In this document: positions 29,473 through 33,582 of the stretch, piece after piece | Layout of the letters: every line of letters begins with the position of its first letter | Numbering within the stretch: the stretch's first letter is position 1 | NCBI GenBank assembly: GCA_030435675.1 | Contig: CM059621.1 | Location: 17,484,001 to 17,548,000, forward strand | DNA length: 64,000 nucleotides | Origin: Steinernema hermaphroditum | Taxonomy: Eukaryota; Nematoda; Chromadorea; Rhabditida; Steinernematidae | Direction of reading: 5' to 3' | Translations under genes and position numbers: made by a program | The notes under the pieces: generated by a model | What the model saw: the letters and a program-made list of their open reading frames with translations, nothing else | The model's database searches: none | What the model was told of the DNA's origin: nothing

Positions 29473-30784
29473 ATGGCCGAGAATTCTAGCATGCCTCTGC
29501 AGCGCACTTCACCAACGGTACACCCAACAGTGCTTCTGACGGCAAAATTGAATTCGCCGTGTACGGCTGTGACCGCAGCCGCGTCACCGTTTGGAGATGA
29601 CCCCCACAACCGTAACTTATGCTACATCATCTACGGAAAAGCCAATGGCGAAACTATTGTCGCCTCCGACGATCAGTGCATCCAGCAGTCGATCCCGACG
29701 GAGTCCGAGTGTGCCATCAGTGTTATTGTTTGTGGTGACGGACGTGACATCGACGAGGCAGAGATATTCGTCATCGCTGCCGATGGCCAAATGCGGGTCT
29801 TCTCCTTTCCCAGATGCTTGGAGCGAGGCGTGCCCAGAAGCTTCCAGGCGGGCGAATGCCAATTCGAGCAGCTCCTCAACGCGAACATTTGTTTCGCTGA
29901 GATTCTCGACTTCGACTATGACGGCAAGAACGAGCTTCTCGTGGCGATGACGGACAGAGTCGGTGAGTCGATAGTGGATGGAGTGTAAGATTGATTCTGT
30001 CTCCCTTCAGTAAGAAGCTATCGCTACGAAGAAGTGGACGACGACGAAATGCATTTCGTGCCGCTGAACAAATGGGAAGTTCCGTCGCACATAAGCGGCA
30101 TCTCCGTTGGTTATGACACGTAGGTTACGAGCGCCACGCGTGACACGTTCGACCCATTCATAGAGACCTCACCGTACTACTCTCGCAAGTGCACCATCAG
30201 AAGTATGTGCGAATAAACTGGGCTACTCAGTGTCGCGTTGTGCAGCCAATGAGCGCCGAAGAAAGCACCAAGAATACGCATCAACTAATCCTTCCGCCGA
30301 AGCCGATCCGTGTCAGCCTTTTCAGCTCTATCGCAACAAAAGTCTTTGTTGCCAACACGAGTAGGCCTCGTCCAGTTCTTCTTAATCATGTTGTTCCATT
30401 TAGCTTGCAACTCCGAAATTCTGCTCAAAGTGGATAAAAGTCCCATCACAGGAGCGGCGGCAACAATTCTCGGCAATAAACTTCAAATCTTGATTACTGT
30501 AGATAGCAAAGGATTCACGTTCGTTTACGGCTGGATGGACCACCTGGTATTGAAGATTCTAAGCATAAAAATAGCCGATGCACTCTTTGCAGATACCAAA
30601 CACGGACCCGATGGCGAGATGCCGCATACCTAGGAACCCTGACAGGCTATGCGCCTTAGCTGACCCAGGCAACCCAAATGTTGTCCTTCTTGGAGTCTCG
30701 TACCTCGGCAATAAGCTTACGTTCCTGAAGTTCAACCTGGAAAATTCCCTCATCAAGGCTAACTTAGCAATCGACCAGCAGTAG
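29473..30784 (+). CDS. ITFG2: ITFG2-like FG-GAP/beta-propeller protein (KICSTOR subunit)
   Basis: ITFG2 is a beta-propeller subunit of KICSTOR, which tethers GATOR1 to lysosomes to restrain mTORC1. Exons 29473-29962, 30011-30119, 30164-30360, 30404-30546 and 30593-30784 give 376 aa (human 447). FG-GAP-like signals are FAEILDFDYDGKNELLVAMT, then the diagnostic DRVVRSYRYEEV. Later blades read GAAATILGNKLQILITVDSK and NVVLLGVSYLGNKLTFLKFN. The N-terminus is shorter than in vertebrates, so a blade may be missing or lie in an unrecognised exon. It is the last gene of the proposed operon, ending 200 bp before the convergent FKH-TBP gene. Confidence 0.82.
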
Positions 30785-30984: not shown

Positions 30985-32670
30985 TCAATAGAATGTATAG
31001 GGGCTGAAGTTGTCCAGGCACGGCTCGAGGCTGGCGGTGAAGTCGGCGTAGTTGTCGTGGAACTGGTAGCTGTGGCTGAAGATGGCGATCGGCTCGTAGA
31101 AGTTGTCCTGAGGGAGTGGCGCTTCCGGCTCATCATCGACGACGAAGAGAGGCGGTTCCGGGTCCTCGCCGAAGTCGAAGGTGGCTGCATCGAATTCGAA
31201 CTCTGGCTCGATGTCCGCAAACGGCGTAGAAGTTTCGGCTGGAGACGACTGGACCGGTTCCGGGGCGCTGACAACGGCTGCTGGGTTGAATTCATCGAAG
31301 AGGGGACGCATCCGCTCGAAGCCGTCGAGGACCTGCTGCTCCGACTTCCCTCCGACGATGTTCACTTTGCCGTTGCTGAAGACGTTCAGCGTCAGCTTCT
31401 GCGACCCATCGCGGAGTTCGTACGTCGCAGCGGAGAACAGTTCCGGATCGTACGTGCATCGGCCAGCGTGGCGACTGGCGAAGGCGGAGAGATCCACCTT
31501 GAAGCCGAGATCCACAGTGGCGACGACGTTTGTGATGCGGAAGTCCTTCTCGATCCCCTTCGGAGCGAACCCCAGCTTCTTGAAGATTTTGGCGACTCTC
31601 CTGGCGGCCTCCCTGCACTGTTCCACTGACTTGAGTCCAGTGACGACGATTTTTCCGCTGCTGAAGACGAGTGCCGTGGTGTCGGGGTTCTTGATCTTCA
31701 TCCGGAGCGAGTTGTGCTTCTGCTGGTCGTACTCGGCGTTCGGCACCTGCGGGGCGACCTTGTGGAGTTCCAGCTTTCTCGGGAGGTGCATGTCCGCGGT
31801 TCCGACGACGTTGACGAAGACGACTTCTCCTACGGGTCCGACGGGGCGCTTCGACTTCTTCTTCGGCTCGGCGGTTGTCTTCGGCTCTGGAGCTTCAATC
31901 CTGAAGGTTGGAGGCGGGAGTGCGGCTGACGTCGAAGGCATCTGGAAGACCGGGAACTGCTGGTACTGGATCGGCATCTCGATGAGCGGGAACTGTTGGT
32001 ATTGGAGCGGCATCTCGAAGGCGGGCGCTGGGAGAGGCTGGATGGGCATCGATGGGGGAGGCGGCGACGAGACCTGAACAGAAGAATAATTAGAAGAACT
32101 TACTTTTCTCTTGGCTTCGGAAGAGTCAAGAGGTTTCATCTCGGCGTCCTTCCATCCGAGGTTCCCGGTGAGGAGGTCGTTGAGCAGGAGACGGTTAACG
32201 AGCTGCTTCCCGAAGACGTCGCAGTGTTCTCCCTTGAAGAGCTTGTTGATCCTTTTCTCGGCGGCAACCTCCGACTCACCTTCGGCTGGATGAAGAGTCC
32301 ACAGTCCTCCTTTGTCGGCTCCTTGCTGCTTGCTGGGGACGATCCTTCCGGTGCCGGCGTCGTCGATCTGGAAACGTTGGAAGTAGGTCGTCTGCGAGAG
32401 AGTGTGCCGAAGCACCCGCTGCGTCTTGTTCCACTCCTTCTTGTCGAGCTTCTGGATGGCGACGACGTGGGTTTGCAGGAAGGCGTAGACGTCCTTGATC
32501 GTGAGAGCGCGGTCGAAGAAGCGCGAGTTGATCCGGGTGTCCGAGTTCCGCATGGCGACGACGATCATCCCGGCGTAGGAGAGTCCGAGCTGGTTCTGGC
32601 GACTGCCTGAAGCAGAAGAAGAAGCATTAGCAGACTTACCACTGGCAGAGGATTTCGAGACGGAAGGCAT
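30985..32670 (-). CDS. forkhead-domain/TBP-core fusion protein with acidic tail
   Basis: A single open frame of 561 codons from ATG 32670. Residues ~28-130 form a divergent forkhead (winged-helix) domain: LSYAGMIVVAM, LTIKDVYAFL, WNKTQRVLRHTLS with the recognition-helix RHxLS, and GGLWTLHP, matching FoxA-type GSFWTLHP. Residues ~205-255 are a Pro/Met/Gln linker with repeated MPxQYQQFP. Residues ~283-370 and 376-462 are two TBP-like repeats (NPDTTALVFSSGKIVVTGLK; YDPELFSAATYELRDGSQKL then LNVFSNGKVNIVGGK). Three of TBP's four DNA-intercalating phenylalanines are kept; the first is His. The last ~95 residues are acidic and aromatic, like an activation domain. Two GT-AG segments of 33 and 30 bp are in frame whether spliced or not. 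The gene is divergent from MSP. It is probably a DNA-binding factor, germline role inferred only. Confidence 0.88.
   Translation of the reverse strand: MPSVSKSSASGKSANASSSASGSRQNQLGLSYAGMIVVAMRNSDTRINSRFFDRALTIKDVYAFLQTHVVAIQKLDKKEWNKTQRVLRHTLSQTTYFQRFQIDDAGTGRIVPSKQQGADKGGLWTLHPAEGESEVAAEKRINKLFKGEHCDVFGKQLVNRLLLNDLLTGNLGWKDAEMKPLDSSEAKRKVSSSNYSSVQVSSPPPPSMPIQPLPAPAFEMPLQYQQFPLIEMPIQYQQFPVFQMPSTSAALPPPTFRIEAPEPKTTAEPKKKSKRPVGPVGEVVFVNVVGTADMHLPRKLELHKVAPQVPNAEYDQQKHNSLRMKIKNPDTTALVFSSGKIVVTGLKSVEQCREAARRVAKIFKKLGFAPKGIEKDFRITNVVATVDLGFKVDLSAFASRHAGRCTYDPELFSAATYELRDGSQKLTLNVFSNGKVNIVGGKSEQQVLDGFERMRPLFDEFNPAAVVSAPEPVQSSPAETSTPFADIEPEFEFDAATFDFGEDPEPPLFVVDDEPEAPLPQDNFYEPIAIFSHSYQFHDNYADFTASLEPCLDNFSPYTFY
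32074..32103 (-). other. 30-bp in-frame intron-like segment in FKH-TBP gene
   Basis: On the minus strand this begins GTAAGT, contains CTAAT, and ends TTCTGTTCAG. It is in frame and free of stops, encoding residues ~190-199 (Ser-rich) if retained. Confidence 0.6.
32607..32639 (-). other. 33-bp in-frame intron-like segment in FKH-TBP gene
   Basis: On the minus strand this begins GTAAGT and ends TCTGCTTCAG, with CTAAT inside as a branch-like motif. Retained, it encodes a Ser/Ala-rich stretch; removed, the frame is unchanged. Confidence 0.6.
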
Positions 32671-33198
32671 GTTGAGAGACCGACCGCTCAGTAGGTTGCA
32701 CAAATGCAAAGTGATGCCTGAGGGGACGAGGGGCGGGGTCCTGCAGAGACAACAGTATGGGTGCAGCGGCGTGGTGGGACCACCCCAGACGGACAGAGAG
32801 AACTACGGTAACTCATGCTCTACGCTGGGCTCTTGAAGAGAATGTCTGGTTCACTGTGGGAGGAGGAGCCGGAGTCTATGAATTCAACTCTTCGATGAAT
32901 CGGTGAATCTGAGTCATCGATGTGGATTCGGGAGGTTGACGTCTGGGTTCTGGAAGACGACCACGGAATCTCAAGGATTATGGTCAGTGGCACTTAGCGG
33001 TCGTCTTTTTGGGGGCGTGAGTCTGACCGACAGATCTGTAGACATGGGCATAGCAACGTGACTTTTCCTCATCTGTAGACGCAAATACTGTCTGAACAAT
33101 CAGACTGAAACACTTTTCTCCGTCTCCTAATGAGACTCGACCGCTTGCTACCCTATATAAGCACATCAGAGCGGAAGAACGGGCAGGCAGCAGCAGCA
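32671..33198. promoter_or_regulatory. shared upstream region of FKH-TBP and MSP genes
   Basis: A 528-bp spacer between divergent starts. A TATATAA box at 33154-33160 sits about 40 bp upstream of the MSP ATG. On the FKH-TBP side a CCCCTCAG acceptor at about 32718-32725 could be a trans-splice site. Confidence 0.55.
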
Positions 33199-33582
33199 AT
33201 GGCTCAATCCGTTCCCCCTGGTGATATCAACACCCAGCCCGGCACGAAGATCGTCTTCAACGCCCCGTACGACGACAAGCACACCTACCACATCAAGATC
33301 ACCAACGCCGGAGGACGCCGCATCGGATGGGCCATCAAGACCACCAACATGAAGCGCCTCGGAGTCGACCCTCCCTGCGGAGTTCTGGACCCCAAGGAGA
33401 ACACTCTCATGGCCGTCTCGTGTGACTCGTTCGCCTACGGACAGGAGGACACCAACAACGACCGCATCACCATCGAGTGGACCAACACCCCCGACGGAGC
33501 CGCCAAGCAGTTCCGCCGCGAATGGTTCCAGGGAGATGGAATGGTCCGTCGCAAGAACCTTCCCATCGAGTACAACCCTTAA
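33199..33582 (+). CDS. msp: major sperm protein (MSP)
   Basis: Nematode-specific cytoskeletal protein that polymerises to drive amoeboid sperm and acts as an oocyte maturation signal. A single exon of 127 aa, the canonical length, starts [20 protein letters not shown] and contains [39 protein letters not shown] and ends [11 protein letters not shown]. It is intronless, as many MSP genes are. TATATAA lies at 33154-33160 and AATAAA at 33618-33623. Identity to Caenorhabditis MSPs appears very high. This is the strongest single taxonomic marker in the window. Confidence 0.98.

Follow-up and report, generated by a model that had tools for sequence, protein, structure and literature searches.

The 64,000-nucleotide stretch of DNA analysed here (the window), C1:17484001-17548000 of the Steinernema hermaphroditum genome, carries on its minus strand an open reading frame (ORF; 30985..32670) of 561 codons plus stop that joins a forkhead winged helix to a TBP core. 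A winged helix, a low-complexity linker, two TBP repeats and an acidic tail in a single frame had been proposed in the initial annotation, and this is the order that was found. Judged by the anatomy of the ORF alone, we are highly confident that a forkhead domain and a TBP core are present in one protein. The same architecture recurs at seven loci, and purifying selection acts on the four intact copies; the finding of both domains in one nematode frame has thus been extended to a small gene family. In the reading that we prefer, the chimeric transcription-factor gene is real and lineage-restricted.

Anatomy of the fusion ORF

All the features of the ORF lie on the minus strand. The profile PF00352 matches the fusion in two stretches, repeat 1 (residues 284-366; 31573..31821) and repeat 2 (31291..31545), with 152 bits against a cut-off of 22.9 (E 4e-45), and the other three intact copies score 149.3-151.7 bits; the presence of two TBP repeats was therefore borne out well over the cut-off. 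In what we take to be the yeast TBP numbering of the intercalating phenylalanines (F99, F116, F190 and F207), the four intact copies agree: each has Phe at the equivalents of F116, F190 and F207 and His at that of F99, in repeat 1, so that three of the four are present. The full set of four is also departed from by TLF, and for this reason it defines TATA binders rather than the whole TBP family. Both central Asn residues of the repeats are retained, as is the E-L in the stretch that contacts TFIIB; in repeat 2, N and V stand in place of the V213/T215-type contacts. For all of these positions we assume the contact roles assigned in TBP. In human TBP the intercalating Phe residues have been numbered 193/210 and 284/301 (PMC3142196). 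For TBPL1, a change to Trp has been reported at a Phe that contacts TATA and is universally conserved (PMC7221094), and such a change is therefore a known route to altered promoter choice.

The forkhead domain occupies residues 30-132 (32275..32583) and is followed by a predicted helical extension (residues 134-191; 32098..32271), which is also found in forkhead-only genes. Of the forkhead assignment of the initial annotation, the fold stands clearly by structure prediction of the N-terminal part, but the sequence score is marginal, around the Pfam cut-off: with PF00250 (cut-off 27) the whole protein scores 26.4 bits, residues 1-230 alone 29.4 bits, and the other three intact copies 23.2-25.9 bits. 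The closest forkheads are FOXN1/FOXN3 by fold and FOXA2 by profile. Asn, Arg, His and Ser of the forkhead recognition helix are the usual contacts, and the Asn normally contacts bases. In our alignment the fusion retains R, H and S and has Arg at the Asn position, in a register that is uncertain because a 3-residue insertion precedes the helix; the position is Arg or Lys in all 14 forkhead rows compared, which comprise the fusion and its single-domain relatives.

Given the change of the forkhead Asn to Arg/Lys and of the TBP Phe to His, the DNA specificities of both domains may have shifted. The recruitment of basal machinery to forkhead sites, considered in the initial annotation, is accordingly conjectural. 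It is possible, although unlikely, that the protein is a repressor or decoy, in which the forkhead would occupy promoters and the altered TBP core would compete for DNA, TFIIA or TFIIB without initiation. The His at the F99 equivalent in the four intact copies and the N and V at the V213/T215-type positions fit such a role, and a TBP-like protein has been reported to repress TATA-box genes (PMC4513858); the retention of three intercalating Phe and the acidic aromatic tail (residues 465-561; 30988..31278), which looks like an activation surface, argue against it.

Between the two domains there is a Pro/Gln linker (residues 201-283; 31822..32070), in which the repeated MPxQYQQFP of the initial annotation was located as two 36-nt units coding for EMPxQYQQFPxx (31945..32016); paralogues have one to three units. 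The ORF also contains two candidate intron-like stretches, recognised by a pattern scan, both in frame and stop-free. The first, of 33 nt (GTAAGT..CTAAT..TTCAG; residues 11-21; 32607..32639), measures 30 nt in copy c17343. The second, of 30 nt (residues 190-199; 32074..32103), lies at the forkhead/linker junction and is present in all seven copies, with substitutions between the splice-like signals; it ends in TTCAG, followed by ATG (MPIQP..) at position 32073. The pattern GT[AG]AGT..CTAAY..YAG occurs four times in total on the two strands of the window, and no such stretch was detected in the nine single-domain genes tested.

The presence of two of the four occurrences in this ORF, one of them at the junction with GTAAGT..CTAAT..TTCAG, would fit a reading in which spliced-leader trans-splicing at the junction yields a separate TBP-like protein, the ORF then not being one protein. 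We consider this improbable: the frame is open through the junction in the four intact copies, the linker has a ratio of replacement to synonymous substitution rates (dN/dS) of 0.25-0.65, and the residues of the junction stretch align, if modestly, with coding sequence of forkhead-only genes. Moreover, the introns of the TBP and TLF genes of this genome (ten, placed by eye, one with a GC start) measure 43-158 nt, which makes the removal of a 30-nt stretch unlikely. The 30- and 33-nt stretches are thus doubtful as ordinary introns, their splice-like consensus still being unaccounted for; they may have remained from introns that served in the fusion, or may act as exonic introns or as a trans-splice site. 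Splicing out both would leave the frame intact.

Copies, selection and origin of the fusion

Profile searches covering 90.6 Mb in 60 contigs rendered 24 PF00352 matches at 12 places of the genome: seven fusion loci, two TBP-like genes (C2 2.43 and 3.04 Mb), a TLF gene (C2 14.5 Mb) and two ordinary TBP genes (C2:17124679-17125216 and C3:14121971-14122435), whose exons were read and which group together at 96/97. All seven fusion loci lie on one chromosome arm of C1, between 16.57 and 17.52 Mb. PF00250 was matched at six of them, the seventh (c17277) being frameshifted within the forkhead part. A protein search of the genome gave, besides the window copy, three full-length matches (96% identity), three loci in pieces and a short fusion fragment at C1 16.58 Mb. 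That an assembly or reading artefact has joined two neighbouring genes is exceedingly improbable, since seven loci, separated by as much as about 0.95 Mb and differing in their flanks, which have diverged, share the same architecture.

In four copies the frame is uninterrupted (561, 561, 560 and 547 aa), and three are broken: c16570 by a 2-nt deletion, c17277 by a 7-nt deletion, and c17351 by 2-nt and 109-nt deletions. The alignment of the ORFs has 11 gap classes, and the four that are not divisible by three are all in the broken copies. By the Nei-Gojobori method, dN/dS over the whole ORF is 0.20-0.32 in the six pairs of intact copies, which are not independent and have small counts. By region, the values are 0.19-0.36 for the forkhead, 0.25-0.65 for the linker, 0.04-0.12 for the TBP repeats, the most constrained region, and 0.27-0.40 for the tail; in none of the six pairs does any region reach 1 in this frame, the smallest count being that of one pair with one synonymous and one replacement change in the forkhead part. 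Pairs that include a broken copy have ORF values of 0.15-0.30, reaching 0.88 in the forkhead and 1.16 in the linker, as expected if breakage was recent.

Single-domain relatives of both halves persist in the same genome and match public S. hermaphroditum proteins named QR680_*. Ten forkhead-only loci among the matches listed (nine on C2, one at C1 6.73 Mb) have 40-48% identity to the N-terminal half of the fusion in the protein search, and the two C2 TBP-like genes have 34-38% identity to its linker and C-terminal half. At one forkhead locus (P0011, C2:2198559-2199263) the public protein is without 13 residues of the open frame, covering the recognition helix, perhaps due to a wrongly predicted intron. 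At C2:3041989-3042576 (P0012/P0013), NCBI has a second form of the TBP-like protein joined to BTB (584 aa, PF00651 + PF00352).

When the linker was compared with the N-terminal part of each TBP-like gene on C2, its score was reached by none of 1000 shuffles in either case, and against S. carpocapsae P0042 by 23 of 1000; against the C-terminal parts of six forkhead-only genes it was reached by 25 to 283 of 300. For the tail, the C-terminal part of the forkhead-only gene L044 gave a signal (score 63, mean 39; 3 of 1000 shuffles), and those of the other five gave none (325 to 999 of 1000). The TBP tree unites P0042, the two TBP-like genes of C2 and the four fusions at 94/99, on long branches, which may be misleading; GKxNxxG in repeat 2 is common to all seven. 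In the forkhead tree the fusions form one group (99/97) among the single-domain genes, the nearest of which is left undecided. Because the linker matches TBP-like genes and the tail matches L044, a TBP-like module, linker included, seems to have been placed within a gene of the forkhead family. The resemblance of the tail to a forkhead-family tail suggests that the TBP part was inserted and not added at the end; this derivation of the tail is the weaker half of the claim and is held less firmly. A TBP-like coding segment, consisting of Pro/Gln linker and TBP core, would have arrived inside a member of the Steinernema forkhead-like family, the winged helix of the host gene would have been retained, its acidic aromatic tail probably so, and the chimera would have been duplicated afterwards on one chromosome arm. 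The persistence of the single-domain families makes possible a stepwise study of the birth of a new variant of a general factor.

Genomic surroundings and possible function

A gene for major sperm protein (MSP; 33199..33582, plus strand; PF00635, 2.7e-23) lies head to head with the fusion in the window, its start codon at 33199 being our choice within an ORF at 33130-33582; TATATAAG is found about 40 bp before it. An MSP neighbour is present within about 600 bp at five of the seven fusion copies and likewise at the 16.58-Mb fragment. No forkhead-only gene on C2 lies closer than about 0.25 Mb to an MSP gene among the matches listed. The MSP genes are duplicated along with five of the seven copies (C1 17.28-17.52 Mb), and two of these units, at 17.343 and 17.351 Mb, form an inverted pair, facing one another. 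The pairing suggests, and does not show, sperm expression of the fusion, because one ancestral arrangement may explain it.

The region upstream of the fusion (32671..32970, minus strand), a probable promoter/5' untranslated region, is kept in copies with and without an MSP neighbour, the latter still having 0.2-0.3 kb of it. Over 21 pairs the mean difference is 4.9% in the 100 alignment columns nearest the ATG on its upstream side and 8.7% in the preceding 100. A near-palindrome, GGTGGTCCCACC, is found somewhat upstream of the middle part of 32671-32770 (minus strand) or just before it; these 100 bp are well conserved in all seven copies. AGATCT was rejected as a common promoter element, being present in only two of the seven upstream regions. 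Past the 3' end of the fusion, 29473-29985 (plus strand) is part of an ITFG2-like gene (PF15907, 2.4e-6). A gene beginning with MCLASTPKQSPRTFRPSSPKPHELNQLYNG lies past the 3' end of three fusion copies (L022 5061-5735, minus strand; L024 4790-5464, minus strand; L023 1775-2344, plus strand), and two of its three copies were scanned, neither of them matching a Pfam family up to an E-value of 0.01. Sperm-related regions of nematodes have been reported to be enriched for novel genes (PMC8480184).

The frequent presence of MSP within a duplicated block, the frameshifts in three copies and the separate fragment could also be explained by a short-lived chimera, copied by segmental duplication together with MSP genes and now being lost, with no important function. 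Such decay is quite improbable in view of the dN/dS values of the intact copies, which for the forkhead and TBP parts are far under 1, and of the conservation immediately before the ATG.

As a rule, TBP and the sequence-specific factors are distinct proteins, between which co-activators form the link. In the reading that we prefer, the fusion protein would be directed by its winged helix to some promoters and not others, the attached TBP-like core would contact TFIIB/TFIIA and/or the DNA of the core promoter, and an activation surface would be provided by the acidic tail. The fusion would then be a tethered, promoter-selective TBP-related factor, not a general one, most likely of the male germ line; its expression, DNA binding, partners and germ-line role are what we infer from the genes. 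Taken as a whole, the statement that comprises a real chimeric gene, its origin by insertion and the tethering mechanism has in our view about an even chance of being right. The narrower proposal, that a TBP able to target itself, with activator and TBP in one molecule, serves the nematode male germ line as its dedicated core-promoter factor and acts at sperm genes such as TATA-bearing MSP genes, is speculative and rather unlikely to hold in full. A covalent fusion selected in several copies would suggest that the co-activator step can be bypassed in an animal. Tools for forward and reverse genetics have been reported for S. hermaphroditum (PMC10858997).

Several points weigh against this reading. 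The fusion is known here at the level of DNA, and three of its seven copies are broken. It was not among the annotated proteins matched, which did include close relatives from S. hermaphroditum itself; the annotation of this species may lack the fusion or model it in another way. The base-contact residues differ in both domains, and the intron-like stretches could give split products that separate the halves. As regards its origin, the tail resembles that of one of six forkhead-only genes, and the identity of the TBP core is 36-40% to ordinary TBPs, 34% to the TBP-like genes and 36% to P0042, so that only the tree (94/99) and the linker would tie it to the TBP-like genes. Two of the seven copies are without an MSP neighbour, and the pairing in the others may stem from a single ancestral arrangement.

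Comparison with FOX proteins and TBP-related factors

The initial annotation knew of no protein joining forkhead and TBP, and none was found in protein and literature searches of limited reach. The DNA-level search for the fusion covered the S. hermaphroditum genome alone. At the protein level, a search with the fusion gave five hits among 7992 scored candidates, all of them TBP only (best E 1.1e-31); the absence of a two-domain relative is weak evidence, because a protein must have 5-residue words in common with the query to be found and the scoring was limited to these 7992 candidates. A forkhead-only profile search also gave five hits, all from S. hermaphroditum, none with both domains, among 5389 candidates, and the search with the TBP-like relatives gave no protein with both. 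Likewise, a literature search, mostly at title and abstract level and of part of the matches, rendered no paper on a forkhead-TBP protein and none carrying both PF00250 and PF00352. We class the fusion as a TBP-related factor with a new architecture, a joining of forkhead and TBP for which these searches gave no precedent.

With FOX proteins the fusion has in common the winged-helix order and, in the register of our alignment, the R, H and S of the recognition helix, but it differs from them in the Arg/Lys at the Asn position, the 3-residue insertion, the extra helical extension and the fused TBP core. Membership in TLF/TRF2 (TBPL1) is not supported: a separate TLF gene exists, and the tree places the fusion with the TBP-like genes (94/99, on long branches). 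The Steinernema TBP-like genes (C2 2.43 and 3.04 Mb; S. carpocapsae L596_009720) have, like the fusion, a Pro-rich N-terminus, a P[TL]xKIG-like end and GKxNxxG; they differ from it in that a forkhead match is found in none of the three and the four intercalating Phe in all three. Among the known TBP-related factors, TRF2 has been described to act at haploid spermatid promoters in mouse (PMC5006001) and TBPL2 in oocytes (PMC7755920). TRF1, TLF/TRF2/TBPL1 and TRF3/TBPL2 have a duplicated TBP core with altered contact residues, as the fusion does. The N-terminal extensions described for TBP-related factors are poly-Gln or Pro-rich (PMC7221094, PMC3142196) and not a DNA-binding domain, whereas that of the fusion contains a forkhead domain.
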